Source: Clostridia bacterium
Lineage (GTDB): Bacteria > Bacillota > Clostridia > Peptostreptococcales > Acidaminobacteraceae
Assembly (NCBI GenBank): GCA_014859095.1
Contig: JACUUV010000002.1
Coordinates: forward strand, 1-64,000
Length of the DNA: 64,000 nucleotides
Direction: 5' to 3'
In this document: one piece after another, positions 53,586 to 60,923 of the stretch
How the letters are laid out: the number at the start of each line of letters is the position of its first letter
Position numbering within the stretch: position 1 is the first letter of the stretch
Translations under genes and position numbers: made by a program
Notes under the pieces: generated by a model
The model's database searches: none
What the model was told of the DNA's origin: nothing
Seen by the model: the letters and a program-made list of their open reading frames with translations, nothing else

Positions 53586-54905
53586 TTACCAAATCATCAT
53601 TTTTTCTGCCTCCGACTCGAGCATTGCCCTAAATTTCGGATGGGCGATGGCAATCAACCGTTTCACTCGCTCTCTCACAGGAGTTCCTCTAAGTGCGGCA
53701 ACGCCATATTCGGTCACTACAAAATCCACATCATTTCTGGATAAACTGACAATGGCACCGGGACTGAGCATTGGCACTATTTTAGATTTTTCTTCCAATA
53801 CACCTGTAAATTTATTCTTGATTTGTGTCGTTGAGTAAAGAGCTATGAAAGATTTCCCGTTTTTAGCATTCTGGGCACCGATAGCTGTGTCCGCCTGACC
53901 ACCAGTACCACTGATTTGTCTTACCCCTACGGATTCAGAGCAGCACTGTCCAGTCAGATCGATTTCAATGGAGGTGTTGATGGACACCATATTGTCATTT
54001 TGTCCAATCACATAAGGATCATTCACATATGTGCCTCTTAGAATATTGACCCCCGGATTGTCATCGATGAAGTCATATAGCTTTTTCGAACCCAGTGCAA
54101 ATGCGGCAATCAATTTGCCTTTATGCAGAGTCTTCCTGCTGTTGTCGATTGCTCCTGACTCATAAAGGTCCACCATTCCATCTGTGAGCATTTCCGTATG
54201 GATTCCAAGATTCTTCTTTGTGGTCAACGCCATGGCGACCGCATTTGGAATCCCACCAATTCCAAGTTGAATTGTTGCTCCGTCTTCTATAAGGTCAGCA
54301 ATGTATGTTCCTATAACCTTATCTTTTTCATTGGGTGTTCCATTGGCAAGTTCAGGAAGTTCATAATCCGTCTCCACAAAATAGTCCACCTGTGAGATAT
54401 GGACCAATGTATCTCCAAATGATCTCGGGACATTGGGGTTTACTTCAAGAACAACAAGATCCGCGATTTCCACCATGTCTTTCTCATAGACGGCACTTGT
54501 CCCGAGCGAGACATATCCGTGATGGTCAACAGGCGAACAATTTCCAAAATAGATGTTTGGCTTCTTATAGGAGACTCTTTTGGTGGATGCGAAGTGAAGG
54601 TGATTCGGAATGAAAGTGATGTTCTTGTTTACATGAAGTTTTCTCATCATCCCACTGTAAAACCAACCTTCCATAAGAAAGGATCCCATGTGGGCAGGAT
54701 TGGTGAAAAACTCGTATTCTCCCATTGGCAAACAATTGATCACATGGATGTCATCCAACCTGTAAGAATCATGGTGTATATTTTCAAGAATGGAACGCGG
54801 TTCGGAAGCTCCGAGTCCGACTACAATATGATCTCCGGATTTTATCAGGGCAATGGCATCTTCCTCCCGTATTCTCTTTTTCTGATAAATCGTCTTATCG
54901 AACAT
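53586..54905 (-). CDS. CoA-transferase / acetyl-CoA hydrolase family (4-hydroxybutyrate CoA-transferase-like)
   Basis: Moves CoA between acyl-CoAs and carboxylic acids. 439 residues from ATG 54905, with AAGGAGG upstream; a TTG one codon earlier is possible. Family segments: VVGLGASEPRSILENI, LGIGGIPNAVAMAL, GIHTEMLTDGMVDLYESG with Glu238, which falls at the number of the catalytic Glu238 reported for the Clostridium aminobutyricum enzyme, and SESVGVRQISGTGGQADT. In butyryl-CoA:acetate transferases the last motif usually reads GGQLDF, so the substrate may differ. It overlaps the ketoacyl-synthase-like gene by 11 bases and shares its sigma-54 promoter. Confidence 0.88.
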   Translation of the reverse strand: MFDKTIYQKKRIREEDAIALIKSGDHIVVGLGASEPRSILENIHHDSYRLDDIHVINCLPMGEYEFFTNPAHMGSFLMEGWFYSGMMRKLHVNKNITFIPNHLHFASTKRVSYKKPNIYFGNCSPVDHHGYVSLGTSAVYEKDMVEIADLVVLEVNPNVPRSFGDTLVHISQVDYFVETDYELPELANGTPNEKDKVIGTYIADLIEDGATIQLGIGGIPNAVAMALTTKKNLGIHTEMLTDGMVDLYESGAIDNSRKTLHKGKLIAAFALGSKKLYDFIDDNPGVNILRGTYVNDPYVIGQNDNMVSINTSIEIDLTGQCCSESVGVRQISGTGGQADTAIGAQNAKNGKSFIALYSTTQIKNKFTGVLEEKSKIVPMLSPGAIVSLSRNDVDFVVTEYGVAALRGTPVRERVKRLIAIAHPKFRAMLESEAEKMMIW

Positions 54906-55938
54906 CAACTGCTCCTCCTTCTCCCCATCTGATCACATTAGCTGCCCAGGCATAACCGATTCCAGCTGCGATCATGGATATTATCGAGCCTTCTTTAACT
55001 TTTCCCTCTTTTAGTGCAAGATGAAGCGACAAAATCTGATCCACTTGGCCAATATGTCCATATTCGCTGAGGTAAATGGATTGACTCTCGCTCAGTCCAA
55101 GCAGATCAAGCATGTGAAGATGCATCGAATATTTGAAGTGCAGAACTGCCAAGTAGTCAAGCTCCTCTTTTTGAACGCCCGATTTTTCAAAAGCTTTGTT
55201 GATGCAATGCATCCAATTCTCCATGGACACTTCTCCCAGCCTATTTTTCATGTGCTCCGGATTCATGAGTTTCAGAGATTTGTAAGCCGAATCCAAATTG
55301 TCTTTATTGATGAGATTCACTGTTCCGCCTATTTCAACGCCCACATCTCTTGCCATGCTCCCATCTGAAATGATATGAGTTTCAAGAAGCAGATTTTTTT
55401 CGTATCCTGCTTTCAAAATGATGGCACCACCCCCGGCTCCTAGATTGAACATCATGCTCATGTTTTTATCGGAATAATCTACTAAATCACCATTCCTATA
55501 ACCTCCACAGATCATAATTGTATCAATGGTTTCATCCGATACCAACATATCCTTGGCAATTTTCATTGCGGAAACGGTTGTACAACACCTGTTTTGAATA
55601 TCGATTCCCCAAGCATTCTTGGCTCCAATTCTATCTTGGATGTAGATGGCCGAGGTCGTAAGCGGATATTCTTTCCACTCTTCACCCATACATAGAATTA
55701 CATCTATATCCATCGGGTCGACTCCGGTGTTCTTCAAACAATCCATTGCAGCTTTCACTCCCATTTCCTGAGTACCATCCCCAGGTCCGGGAATCGGTTT
55801 CTTCGTGAATCCCAGTTTATCTATGATTGCCTGTTCCGCCCATATGCCGTGGGTGGCCTCAGAAATTTCTTTCGCACTGATTGTTCCACTGGGTATATAA
55901 ATTCCGGTACCTACTATGCCAACAGGCCTTTTACTCAT
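54895..55938 (-). CDS. Ketoacyl synthase III / HMG-CoA synthase-like condensing enzyme
   Basis: 347 residues of the thiolase superfamily. The start at 55938 follows AAGGAGG and gives MSKRPVGIVGTGIYIPSG. The nucleophile is Cys118 in GIDIQNRCCTTVSA. His267 (LAVLHFKY) matches the FabH histidine. The third residue, Asn in FabH (GN), is His295 (EYGHIGQVDQ). KPIPGPGDGTQEMGVKAA recalls archaeal HMG-CoA synthases. No acyl-carrier or fatty-acid gene is nearby; its partner is a CoA-transferase, so a CoA-thioester condensation or cleavage is likelier than fatty-acid initiation. The substrate is unknown. A sigma-54 promoter lies 38 bases upstream. Confidence 0.82.
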   Translation of the reverse strand: MSKRPVGIVGTGIYIPSGTISAKEISEATHGIWAEQAIIDKLGFTKKPIPGPGDGTQEMGVKAAMDCLKNTGVDPMDIDVILCMGEEWKEYPLTTSAIYIQDRIGAKNAWGIDIQNRCCTTVSAMKIAKDMLVSDETIDTIMICGGYRNGDLVDYSDKNMSMMFNLGAGGGAIILKAGYEKNLLLETHIISDGSMARDVGVEIGGTVNLINKDNLDSAYKSLKLMNPEHMKNRLGEVSMENWMHCINKAFEKSGVQKEELDYLAVLHFKYSMHLHMLDLLGLSESQSIYLSEYGHIGQVDQILSLHLALKEGKVKEGSIISMIAAGIGYAWAANVIRWGEGGAVDVR

Positions 55939-55975
55939 GTAAACCTCCTTGTGATTTGCGTATGCAATTGATAAT

Positions 55976-55991
55976 TGCAAAAGGCATGCCA
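55976..55991 (-). promoter_or_regulatory. Sigma-54 promoter of the condensing enzyme/CoA-transferase operon
   Basis: Minus-strand TGGCAT-GCCTT-TTGCA. The invariant GG (-24) and GC (-12) are ten bases apart as required for sigma-54. Predicted start near 55965, with the ribosome site about 20 bases further. A TGCAATT-GAT-AATTGCA inverted repeat (55963-55979) overlaps the -12 box. The activator gene lies directly upstream. Confidence 0.8.
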
Positions 55992-56077
55992 AAGGATTAT
56001 GCATATTAAATGACGATAGTTGTTCCCGATTTATCTTTTTATGTATGAATTACTGTACAAATTTACGACAGTGTTCA

Positions 56078-56096
56078 ATTTGTGTACAACACAAAT
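56078..56096. promoter_or_regulatory. Candidate enhancer site for the sigma-54 activator
   Basis: ATTTGTGT-ACA-ACACAAAT, a perfect 8-3-8 inverted repeat about 90 bases upstream of the -24 box, the usual place for an activator site. A second TGTACAA half-site lies 29 bases nearer (56054-56060), within an ACTGT...ACAGT pair (56052-56072). Confidence 0.5.
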
Positions 56097-56102
56097 AAAA
56101 GA

Positions 56103-56136
56103 AACACACATCAATCTGTTTGGTTGATAGTGTGTT
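56103..56136 (-). terminator. Terminator of the sigma-54 activator gene
   Basis: AACACACTATCAA pairs with TTGATGTGTGTT with one bulged base and a nine-base loop; TCTTTTATTTG follows in the minus-strand RNA. It separates the activator transcript from the enzyme operon. Confidence 0.65.
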
Positions 56137-56145
56137 CCTCATAAT

Positions 56146-57573
56146 TTATTGGGGCAGATCCATATGATATTTTTCGATTTTCTCATAGAGACTGGTTCTA
56201 CTGATTCCCAGAATTTTGGCCGCTTTTAGTTTATTGTAATTTACTGCTTTGAGACATCTTAGTATTGTCGTTTTCTCTATATCTTCGACCGCTTCCCTCA
56301 ATGAGATGAAGTTGGCGGGTTCCTGCTTTTCAAGTTCAAGATGATTGGGCTTATGGGCTATGACATATGCGGGGAGGTGATGTATTTCAATGGTTTCCTG
56401 GTCAGTGAGATTAATGGCCCTTTCTATGACGTTTTCGAGCTCCCTGATATTCCCTGGCCAATTGTATGATTTCAGACTCTCAAGTGCATCCACTGTGATA
56501 TTGCTGACGAATCTTCCAAGCGAATTTGAAAGCTTGTCCATCAATTTCAGTGTCAATATCTCAATATCATCTTTCCTCGCTCTAAGCGGGGGCACTTCGA
56601 CATTGATGACATTGAGTCTATAGTAGAGATCTTCTCTGAACATATTTTCCTTGATTCTTTGCTGTAATTCCCTGTTGGTTGCTGCAATAATCCGACAATC
56701 CACCGGAATAGTCTTATTCCCGCCAATCCGTTCAATTTCCTTTTCTTGAAGCACTCTAAGAATTTTAACCTGCATATCCAGCGGCATATCCCCAATTTCA
56801 TCCAAGAATATTGTGCCCCCCGATGCCAGTTCGAATTTTCCTATTTTACCTTGTTTCTTTGCGCCGGTAAATGCGCCTTCCTCATAGCCGAACAACTCGG
56901 ATTCAAGTAGATCTTTTGGAATCGCAGCACAATTTATTTTTACAAAAGGACCATCAGCACGCCTTGAATCATTGTGTATAGCATGAGCAAACAACTCTTT
57001 GCCAGTCCCACTCTCTCCAACAATCAGAACGTTTGAGTCCGTTTTTGCAGATTTTGCAGCCATACTTTTCACGCTTTGCATCACCAAGGAATTTCCGACT
57101 ATTGTTTTCCAATTGTATTTTGCACCGCGCATATTTTTAAGTTCTTCTTGATATACCGACAATTTGCCTTCAAGTAATTTATTCTTCTCTAACACTTCCT
57201 GGAGTTGTTTGATGTCATCAAACACAACCATCCCAAACCCGTAAACCACTTCACCGTCATCATCAAGCACAGGAATTCTATGTACAATGGCCGTATGACC
57301 GTTTGAAAATTTGTGCTTATATGCAATTTCCGGTTTTTTATTTTTAATGACATAAGGAAATCTGGTGTTGGGATCGACATCAGAGACCTTTTTTCCGATC
57401 AACTCGTCACGGGGATGTTCCAAATACTTAGCAAACGCCTCATTGATCATCACGATTTCCGTATCTTTGTTCACCATTATAAATGGCACTGAAATCGGAT
57501 CGAAAATCTGATGCAAACGCGTCATAAATGACGAATCCATAAAACCATCTTTTTTGCCGGCATAAGTACTCAT
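56146..57573 (-). CDS. Sigma-54-dependent activator with PAS, AAA+ and Fis-type HTH domains
   Basis: 475 residues, RocR/AcoR-like layout. A PAS sensor (about 20-120: [21 protein letters not shown]) is linked by a coiled coil to the AAA+ domain with Walker A GESGTGKE (186-193), the sigma-54 contact loop GAFTGA (233-238), Walker B in [17 protein letters not shown] and LRALEN-like [12 protein letters not shown]. The Fis-type helix-turn-helix is [20 protein letters not shown] at the C-terminus. There is no response-regulator receiver, so it probably senses a small metabolite or redox state through PAS. It lies between arcC and the enzyme pair, and both it and that pair have sigma-54 promoters. 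A role in arginine catabolism like RocR is possible but no sigma-54 site precedes arcA. Confidence 0.93.
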
Positions 57574-57623
57574 TTTGTCACACCCCTTGTTTTCTACTTT
57601 GATTATTTATATTATATAACGAT

Positions 57624-57639
57624 TGCAACTTTCATGCCA
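57624..57639 (-). promoter_or_regulatory. Sigma-54 promoter of the activator gene
   Basis: Minus-strand TGGCAT-GAAAG-TTGCA, with GG and GC ten bases apart. It equals the downstream sigma-54 promoter in all eleven conserved positions. It sits just after the arcC terminator and 50 bases before the activator start. An overlapping TATAAT at about 57612-57617 could allow basal sigma-A transcription. Confidence 0.75.
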
Positions 57640-57642
57640 CAC

Positions 57643-57679
57643 AAAAAAACCACCCGTCACAACAATCTGTGACAGATGG
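57643..57679 (-). terminator. Terminator of the arginine deiminase operon
   Basis: CCATCTGTCACA pairs with TGTGACGGGTGG (two G-U) around a six-base loop and TTTTTTT follows at once in the minus-strand RNA, 12 bases past the arcC stop. Confidence 0.87.
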
Positions 57680-57691
57680 CCCAATTTCATA

Positions 57692-58636
57692 TTAATCGAG
57701 TACAACAAGTGTTCCAGTAGATCCCTCGATACCTTCTTTTGCTTTTTCAAGAGAGGTGATCAAAGCTTTTCTACCAGGTTTAGATTTAGCGAATTTGAGC
57801 GCTGCCTGTACTTTCGGCAACATGCTGCCTGGTGCGAAATGACCCTCTGCGATATACTTTTCCGTATCTTCAAGATTCATTTTGCTCAACCACTTTTCAT
57901 CTGGTTTTCCAAAATTGATTGCCACTTGCTCAACAGCCGTGAGGATGATCAAATAGTCAGCATCCAGTATTTCCGCAATTTTCTCTGATGCGAAATCCTT
58001 GTCAATGACTGCCGGAATCCCTATGAGTTTATTACCTTCCCTATATACAGGAATACCTCCACCGCCAACTGTGATCACAACGTGACCCTGCTCGACAAGC
58101 GCTGAGACCGTTTCTTTTTCGGCAACATCCACCGGCTGAGGAGATGCAACCACACGTCTATATCCTCGACCAGAATCCTCAATCATGACATATCCTTTTT
58201 CACTGACCATTTTATCGGATTCTTCCTTGGAATAGAAAGCTCCAATCGGCTTTGTCGGATTGACGAATGCAGAATCATTTTTATCTACAATCACCTGAGT
58301 GATTACAGTAGCAACCGGTATATTCATATTTCTATTGAGAAGTTCTTCCCTGATAGCATTTTGTAAATGAAATCCAATATACCCCTGACTCATTGCACCA
58401 CATTCAGGAAACGGCATTTCAGGTGTTCCCGCAGGAGTATTTGCAGCAGTGGACATAGCAAGATTGATCATACCCACTTGCGGGCCGTTGCCATGTGCGA
58501 GTATCACTTCATGTCCAGCTTCAATTAGGTCCACAATCGGTTTTGCCGTGTCTTTAACAAGTGCTCTTTGCTCTTCCGGTGAGTTGCCAAGTGCGTTACC
58601 GCCCAATGCAACTACAATTTTGTCTTTCATTTTCAT
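57692..58636 (-). CDS. arcC: Carbamate kinase
   Basis: Makes ATP from carbamoyl phosphate and ADP, the energy-yielding step of arginine breakdown. 314 residues of the amino acid kinase family: VVALGGNALGNSPEEQRALV, LAHGNGPQVGMINLAM, ASPQPVDVAEKETVSALVEQ, VITVGGGGIPV and KVQAALKFAKSKPGRKALIT at the end. GGAGG precedes the ATG. It follows argF by 22 bases and ends the operon with a good terminator. Confidence 0.96.
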   Translation of the reverse strand: MKMKDKIVVALGGNALGNSPEEQRALVKDTAKPIVDLIEAGHEVILAHGNGPQVGMINLAMSTAANTPAGTPEMPFPECGAMSQGYIGFHLQNAIREELLNRNMNIPVATVITQVIVDKNDSAFVNPTKPIGAFYSKEESDKMVSEKGYVMIEDSGRGYRRVVASPQPVDVAEKETVSALVEQGHVVITVGGGGIPVYREGNKLIGIPAVIDKDFASEKIAEILDADYLIILTAVEQVAINFGKPDEKWLSKMNLEDTEKYIAEGHFAPGSMLPKVQAALKFAKSKPGRKALITSLEKAKEGIEGSTGTLVVLD

Positions 58637-58658
58637 CGCTTACCTCCACATCATATAC

Positions 58659-59651
58659 TTATAAATTTCCAATCGTCGCCACCATGATGGCTTTAATGGT
58701 ATGCATTCTGTTCTCTGCTTCTTCAAACACTACAGAATGTTTGCTTCTGAAGACCTCATCTGTGACTTCCATCGCCGTGAGACCAAATTTTTCCTCTATT
58801 TCTCGTCCTACTTCTGTCATTGTATCATGGAACGCAGGCAAGCAATGCATAAAGATGACATTGCTATTTTTGGTTCTTCTTAACATATCCATATTGACTT
58901 GAAAAGGTTTTAATAGCTTTATACGCTCTTCAAATAAATCCTCTTCTCCCATGGACACCCAAACATCGGTATAGATTACATCAGCGTTTTCCACCGAGTC
59001 CAAATCTTCACTGAATTCAAGTACTGCACCGGTATAATCGGCTACAACCTGCATTTCATCAACAAGCTCTTTCGTTGGCCACAACTCTTTAGGTGCAAGC
59101 GCTACAAAATGCATTCCTACGAGCGCAGCGCCAATCAAAAGAGAATTGCCCATATTGTTTCTGGCATCACCTGCATAAACGAATTTAACCTTATTGAGCG
59201 GTTTATCCACTTGTTCCATTATGGTCAGGAAATCCGCCAGAATTTGAGTGGGATGATACATATCCGTGAGACCGTTCCATACAGGGACTCCAGCATGTTT
59301 CGCAAGGGTCTCCACTGTTTCCTGGCTATATCCACGGAACTCGATTCCATCATAGTACCTGCCAAGTACTTTAGCCGTATCCTCAACACTTTCCTTTTTA
59401 CCCATCTGGCTATTGGTCAGAAAGGTCACATTAGCACCTTCATCACAAGCTGCAACCTCAAATGCACACCTTGTCCTTGTAGATGTCTTTTCAAAAAGTA
59501 GGCATACATTTTTATGTTCAAGTAAGTTGCCCTTGATCCCGGTAAGTTTTCTTGCTTTCAAGTCTACTGACAAATGTAGCAGGTACTTTATTTCTTCAGG
59601 TTTCAAATCTTTCAATGTGATCAAATGTCTTCCTTTTAAATTCACTGGCAT
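58659..59651 (-). CDS. argF: Ornithine carbamoyltransferase (catabolic)
   Basis: Phosphorolyses citrulline to ornithine and carbamoyl phosphate in this context. From ATG 59651 it has 330 residues, with AAGGAGG eight bases before; an earlier in-frame start lacks such a site. The carbamoyl-phosphate loop is EKTSTRTRCAFEVAA, ornithine binding is in the DVWVSMGEE region, and HCLPAFHD carries the conserved Cys. The same enzyme family also serves arginine synthesis, but the place between arcA and arcC shows a catabolic role (often named arcB). Confidence 0.95.
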   Translation of the reverse strand: MPVNLKGRHLITLKDLKPEEIKYLLHLSVDLKARKLTGIKGNLLEHKNVCLLFEKTSTRTRCAFEVAACDEGANVTFLTNSQMGKKESVEDTAKVLGRYYDGIEFRGYSQETVETLAKHAGVPVWNGLTDMYHPTQILADFLTIMEQVDKPLNKVKFVYAGDARNNMGNSLLIGAALVGMHFVALAPKELWPTKELVDEMQVVADYTGAVLEFSEDLDSVENADVIYTDVWVSMGEEDLFEERIKLLKPFQVNMDMLRRTKNSNVIFMHCLPAFHDTMTEVGREIEEKFGLTAMEVTDEVFRSKHSVVFEEAENRMHTIKAIMVATIGNL

Positions 59652-59681
59652 AATGCGTTCCTCCTTATTTTGCAATCCATT

Positions 59682-60923
59682 TTATCGTCTGACAATATCG
59701 TTTCTATATAGTGGCATTGACATGCATCTGGGTCCACCACGACCACGTGAGAGTTCTGAAGAAGGGACTTCATGCAATATGATACCTTCTTCTTCAAGTA
59801 AACGGTTGGTCACATGATTTCTGGTATAGACAATGACTTCACCCGGTGCAAGAGCCAGTGTGTTCGAACCATCGTTCCATTGCTCTCTCCCTGCGTCGAT
59901 GCCACGTTTGCCGCCACATCGGATCAATTTCACATTCTCCACATCCAAATATTTGCTTAAGATGCGATCCAGAGGTTGCGTTTCCTTATCAATCGAGTAC
60001 TTTCCAGGTTCACCGGTTCGCTTTAATGAATATACTGTCAGAGGTCCCTCAATTTCGGGATGTATCGTAAAAACGTTGTGATCCACCATTGTGAACACTG
60101 TATCCAGATGCATGAATGCACGTTCTTTCGGAATATCAAATGCCAGTATGGTTTGGAATGGCTGCCCATTTGAAAATATGTTCTTAGCAAGAATTTCAAT
60201 CGCGTCGGCATCGGTTCGTTGTGATATGCCAATCGCTATTACTTTTTCACTGAGCACCAATATATCTCCACCTTCAACCGCATATTTCTCATCCCGATTG
60301 TACCAGAATGGTGGATTGCTTTCCCTAAGTTTCGGGTGATGTTTGAATATGTAACCTGCAAACAATGTTTCTCTGCGTCTCGTGAGTGTTCGCATGTGGT
60401 TGAGGGCAATACCGTCCCCTATCGTCGAAAACGGATCACGGGTAAAGTAGAGATTTGGCATCGGATCGACGATAAATGGATAGGCTTGATCCATTCTGTC
60501 CGCCAAAGAACTACCATGTGCGATCTTGAGTTCTTCTCTTCTTATGCCGGCCATCATCTTGTCCACCATTTTTCGATTGTCATCGAAATCCAGATAATAC
60601 TCTTTGACTTGTTTTAACCGAATTTCCTTCCTGATTCCAGACTCTTTTAGAAAATCGTCCACAAAAGCTTCTTTAATTGCTTTGTCCTCAATGGTTTCAG
60701 CCATCAAGTCCTCAAGATAAAAAACTTCCACACCATTTTTTCTGAATACGTCAGCGAAGACATCGTGTTCTTCCCTGGCCACTTTCATGTATGGTATGTC
60801 ATCAAAAAGCAACCTCTTCATCAGATCAGGAGTCAGATTTTCGATTTCTTCTCCCGGTCTGTGCAACAGGACTTTCTTCAATCTTCCGATTTCCGAATAG
60901 ACATGCAACCCTTTGACATTCAT
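59682..60923 (-). CDS. arcA: Arginine deiminase
   Basis: Hydrolyses arginine to citrulline and ammonia. 413 residues. The N-terminal [20 protein letters not shown] is typical, [18 protein letters not shown] carries the Asp of the guanidine site, [16 protein letters not shown] follows, [19 protein letters not shown] has the catalytic His, and the nucleophilic Cys is in [13 protein letters not shown] near the end. It is first in the arcA-argF-arcC operon and has a sigma-A promoter. An arginine/ornithine antiporter gene (arcD) is not in the window, and no ArcR or RocR-type sigma-54 site precedes it. Confidence 0.97.

Follow-up and report, generated by a model that had tools for sequence, protein, structure and literature searches.

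At loci of the kind described here, the activator gene is typically under the control of a sigma-54-independent promoter (PMC4941409). A departure from this arrangement has been characterized for AnfA of Azotobacter vinelandii, the gene for which has a self-activated sigma-54 start in addition to basal starts; deletion of anfA strongly lowers the activity of the anfA promoter (PMC9542535). In the Clostridiales, Nie et al. included mopR and dioR in the predicted sigma-54 targets of their own products (PMC6615313, Table 1). With regard to the placement of the enhancer, Bacillus subtilis rocG is served by an enhancer located 1.5 kb downstream of its promoter, in an intergenic region that also serves rocABC (PMC4941409). 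The locus analyzed here contains a gene for a sigma-54 activator (bEBP) with a putative sigma-54 promoter of its own and a candidate enhancer beyond the 3' end of the gene. The close relatives of this organism that bear names are Fusibacter species, and a literature search for Fusibacter together with sigma-54 found no paper in the collection searched. The features of the locus are as follows, with coordinates referring to the window, that is, the whole 64-kb stretch of DNA that was analyzed.

57692 to 60923, minus strand: arcC, arcB and arcA (arginine deiminase pathway), the upstream neighbors, set apart by a terminator
57647 to 57682, minus strand: intrinsic terminator of the arcABC unit, with a 16-pair stem, a 4-nt loop and a T-run
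57635 to 57640, minus strand: possible weak -35 element, GTGGCA, at an 18-nt spacing to TATAAT (10/12 matches for the pair)
57624 to 57639, minus strand: predicted sigma-54 (-24/-12) promoter of the activator gene, TGGCATGAAAGTTGCA, an exact match to a rare consensus, kept in 13/13 Fusibacteraceae orthologues
57613, minus strand: +1 of sigma-54 transcription as predicted from the position of the -12 C (57625), 40 nt ahead of the ATG
57611 to 57616, minus strand: TATAAT, which overlaps the predicted sigma-54 start and is probably the -10 element of a basal sigma-A promoter (motif match, 13/13 orthologues)
56146 to 57573, minus strand: sigma-54 activator of 475 amino acids with PAS, AAA+ (GAFTGA) and Fis-type helix-turn-helix (HTH) regions (profile matches and translation)
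56099 to 56140, minus strand: probable terminator of the activator gene, a hairpin (-16.8 kcal/mol) followed by a T-rich stretch
56054 to 56088, minus strand: twin enhancer (UAS), two TGT-N11-ACA sites in an 18-bp register, kept at 13/13 promoters of the KAS III-like gene
55976 to 55991, minus strand: predicted sigma-54 promoter of the enzyme operon, TGGCATGCCTTTTGCA, an exact match to the consensus
54895 to 55938, minus strand: KAS III-like enzyme, target gene 1 (family match, NCBIfam PRK06840)
53586 to 54908, minus strand: protein of the acetyl-CoA hydrolase/transferase family (CoA-transferase-like), target gene 2 (family match)

The activator was recognized by its Sigma54_activat (E value of 4.2e-75) and HTH_8 (E value of 3.7e-12) domains, and the GAFTGA motif can be read directly in its translation. 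Its best NCBIfam match is PrdR, the proline reductase regulator (TF_PrdR), but an identity as PrdR was rejected because the score of 483.4 bits lies below the equivalog cutoff of 795. For the KAS III-like target gene, the longest open reading frame (54895 to 56004) begins upstream of the gene's own sigma-54 promoter, and the ATG at 55938, which follows an AAGGAGG, is more likely the true start. On the other side of the activator gene, the RNA of the arcABC terminator has a folding energy of -22.2 kcal/mol (z score of -5.0), with 0 of 200 shuffled sequences folding as well, and its T-run stops a few bases before the activator's sigma-54 site. Because this strong terminator separates the two units, co-transcription of the activator with the arc operon was discounted, although some read-through may occur.

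The first-pass annotation had pointed to a sigma-54 motif 50 bases before the activator that shares its conserved positions with the promoter of the enzyme operon, and both statements are borne out. The minus-strand sequence from 57639 to 57624 has no mismatch to the -24/-12 consensus TGGCAYGN4TTGCW, its GG and GC dinucleotides are correctly spaced when examined with TGGCAYR-N4-TTGCW, and 50 nt separate the end of the site from the ATG at 57573. The only other site in the 64-kb window with zero mismatches to TGGCAYGN4TTGCW is the one ahead of the KAS III-like gene and thus of the target operon (55991 to 55976, minus strand). By comparison, 0.02 to 0.11 exact matches per 64 kb are expected from three Markov models trained on the window, and for the looser pattern TGGYA-N6-TTGC these models predict approximately 0.002 matches per 200-nt upstream region. 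Across the 2.98-Mb genome, a slightly wider pattern (TGGCAYRN4TTGCW) has 13 exact matches and the reversed control pattern has none. The genome also encodes RpoN (Pfam Sigma54_AID; E value of 1.2e-17; G000:C112). The sigma-54 promoter of the activator gene is very probably real. The RNA predicted to begin at 57613 folds no better than shuffled sequences, and hence no structured leader was detected in it.

The annotation had also proposed that the same motif be sought upstream of orthologous activators. We compared the neighborhoods of orthologues that are 75 to 98% identical and come from five genera of the same family. All 13 Fusibacteraceae orthologues with upstream DNA, including that of the window, have a TGGYA-N6-TTGC site, at distances of 66 to 128 nt to the start codon; the -24 and -12 elements are retained throughout, while the spacer and the distance to the gene vary. 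In the genera of Fusibacter paucivorans and Fusibacter sp. 3D3 the -24 element reads TGGTA, which counts against the explanation proposed below. None of the more distant orthologues (approximately 51 to 61% identity), which come from Tissierellia, from other families of the order and from a further genus of the same family as the window (L044 and L046), has a sigma-54 site directly before the activator, while nearly all of them have one after the activator gene. In a maximum-likelihood tree, one change with a support of 100/100 explains the trait, and a single gain of the promoter, specific to the Fusibacteraceae lineage, appears well supported. An upstream site is also uncommon among activators at large, as had been supposed: in a sample of 89 it was found before 11, all of them the Fusibacteraceae orthologues, leaving 0 of the 78 non-orthologues or distant orthologues, and it was found before 0 of 38 in a second, clostridial sample, although both samples lean toward the query's relatives and toward family members with high scores and provide only a rough base rate. 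Within the genome itself, none of the nine other activator genes is directly preceded by a sigma-54 site on its strand.

Two further features of the Tissierellia group were noticed in the course of this comparison. In L110, L112, L113, L117 and L158, a strict sigma-54 site lies approximately 940 to 960 nt before the activator, one gene upstream, and the gene behind it looks by eye like a short-chain dehydrogenase; since a strict site precedes this gene, the regulon in Tissierellia may include it. In L110, L111 and L158, which are devoid of a sigma-54 promoter before the activator, the first codons of the activator gene contain a TGT-N11-ACA sequence; it could mediate autorepression or may be a chance product of the coding sequence.

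Besides the sigma-54 site, each of the 13 orthologues has a TATAAT sequence 38 to 63 nt ahead of its start codon, with a probability of 2 to 11% of arising by chance in each case, depending on the composition of the leader; the accompanying -35 elements are weak. A basal sigma-A promoter is likely to be present as well and, because the TATAAT is conserved in all 13 orthologues, basal expression from it probably coexists with that from the sigma-54 promoter. The gene is thus likely to have a basal sigma-A promoter together with a sigma-54 booster. In the window the two overlap, and the two polymerases would compete there since the -24 element also supplies the weak -35 element.

The twin TGT-N11-ACA enhancer lies beyond the activator gene; it precedes the enzyme promoter by 63 bp and follows the activator promoter at a distance of 1.54 kb. 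As a perfect pair it is found at only this one place in the 2.98-Mb genome, an indication that the regulon consists of one operon, perhaps together with the activator gene. With a weight matrix built from the enhancers of the target promoters, on which real sites score 13.8 to 23.6 bits, the 1.5 kb preceding the activator gene of this genome gave no score above 1.8 bits. Likewise, an unbiased search of ten genomes for a shared dyad of any type in the 250 bp above the activator promoter yielded nothing beyond the level of shuffled sequences; the same search on the target promoter returned TGT-N11-ACA as the top dyad in 9/9 genomes. Several individual matches were considered and rejected: a TGT-N10-ACA sequence in arcC (at -249) is not conserved, and enhancer-like matches upstream in L041 and L042 (16.6 bits, beside a likely terminator) and in L036 (12.2 bits) are not shared by the remaining genomes. 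As a separate observation, the hairpin of the activator-gene terminator is overlapped for 20 to 25 nt by the twin enhancer in L034 to L037 and L039 to L043, where the spacer of the second enhancer site is the T-run of the terminator, so that one stretch of DNA would act as both enhancer and terminator; no such overlap exists in the window, L032 or L038.

To account for these findings, we propose that the sigma-A promoter provides a basal level of activator and that the -24/-12 promoter would add transcription once a sigma-54 activator is engaged. This activator would most likely be the product of the gene itself, after its PAS domain has sensed a signal, acting from the twin enhancer that lies between this gene and the enzyme operon. 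The shared enhancer would serve the enzyme promoter from 63 bp upstream and would reach the activator promoter by looping from approximately 1.5 kb downstream, in the way that rocABC and rocG share the RocR enhancer, and the outcome would be a signal-dependent amplification of a small regulon, probably of one operon. We assign a probability of about 0.6 to this explanation as a whole. That the activator activates its own gene is, judged from the DNA, probable; since the 1.5 kb upstream contain no detectable enhancer, this would need looping from the shared enhancer, and the assignment of the downstream enhancer to the activator promoter is tentative. Its geometry does have a precedent because the rocG arrangement of B. 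subtilis is alike. It is conceivable, if somewhat doubtful, that one enhancer drives both sigma-54 promoters, with the activator gene located inside the loop formed by its own product, and that this compact, self-amplifying module arose once in the Fusibacteraceae over an older sigma-A promoter. The first-pass annotation had deduced positive feedback with switch-like behavior. The part that concerns the gene's own sigma-54 promoter is upheld by its presence in 13/13 orthologues, while the part that makes the activator itself the driver finds no enhancer site nearby to support it. Switch-like behavior does not follow from the data, as a conserved basal promoter and dependence on a signal fit simple amplification equally well.

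The main rival to self-activation through the shared enhancer, which we prefer, accepts the sigma-54 promoter as real but has another of the genome's activators drive it, in a cascade rather than by self-feedback. The genome does have nine further activators, and no enhancer of the activator's own type is found upstream of its gene. However, no conserved dyad of any type is seen in the 250 bp above the promoter across ten genomes, although the search recovers the enhancer of the target promoter; furthermore, an enhancer of the right type is present downstream, at a distance known to work for rocG. We regard a cascade as unlikely.

The other two alternatives concern the relationship between the sigma-54 site and the TATAAT element, and for both of them the arrangement in the orthologues is informative. 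Four sequences (the window, L032, L033 and L036) have their TATAAT on or next to the predicted sigma-54 start, at a spacing that fits a sigma-A promoter. With GTGGCA, 18 nt before TATAAT, as a -35 element that matches at 10/12 positions together with its partner, the TATAAT promoter alone might transcribe the gene and the sigma-54 match would be incidental. The same overlap would allow the sigma-54 holoenzyme to act not as a booster but as a roadblock that represses the sigma-A promoter through a silent closed complex at its landing site. In the other nine orthologues, however, the TATAAT is located well downstream of the predicted sigma-54 start and is separate from the sigma-54 site, and TGGYA-N6-TTGC is kept nonetheless, without any overlap of elements. 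These nine cases speak for independent selection on the two elements and so make a sigma-A promoter in disguise less credible; in addition, the retained -12 TTGC has no role in sigma-A recognition, and a chance occurrence is improbable given the expected number of such sites per upstream region. An incidental match is thus very unlikely, and repression by a bound holoenzyme is at most as probable, since the site persists where there is nothing overlapping for it to block. Self-activation through the shared enhancer, on top of a basal sigma-A promoter, remains our preferred reading.

Once gained, apparently in a single event, the promoter was retained while the DNA around it changed. Orthologues without it (Tissierellia and other families) and with it (Fusibacteraceae) offer a clean before-and-after comparison, which lets one ask what self-amplification adds to a small regulon, and the locus lends itself to a natural test of whether the promoter of an activator gene can be served by an enhancer located downstream of the gene.

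Other activator genes with a sigma-54 promoter of their own have been described before, and the possible twist here is an enhancer located beyond the activator gene. As for AnfA, the gene appears to have its own sigma-54 promoter along with other, basal starts, the latter being predicted in our case; the two systems belong to different phyla and have different targets, and what was shown by experiment for AnfA is inferred here. MopR and DioR resemble the present activator in that their genes are listed as their own predicted sigma-54 targets, but their enhancer motifs and target genes differ, and the compilation in PMC6615313 (Table 1) covers genera other than the Fusibacteraceae group. With PrdR, the activator shares an enhancer of the TGT...ACA type, as listed for that regulator, while its target genes are different. 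A parallel in layout is the RocR-controlled rocG-rocABC region, in which two units of the same orientation likewise flank one enhancer, placed approximately 1.5 kb beyond the first promoter and ahead of the second; there, the first gene encodes an enzyme (rocG), whereas here the gene with the putative downstream enhancer is that of the activator itself.
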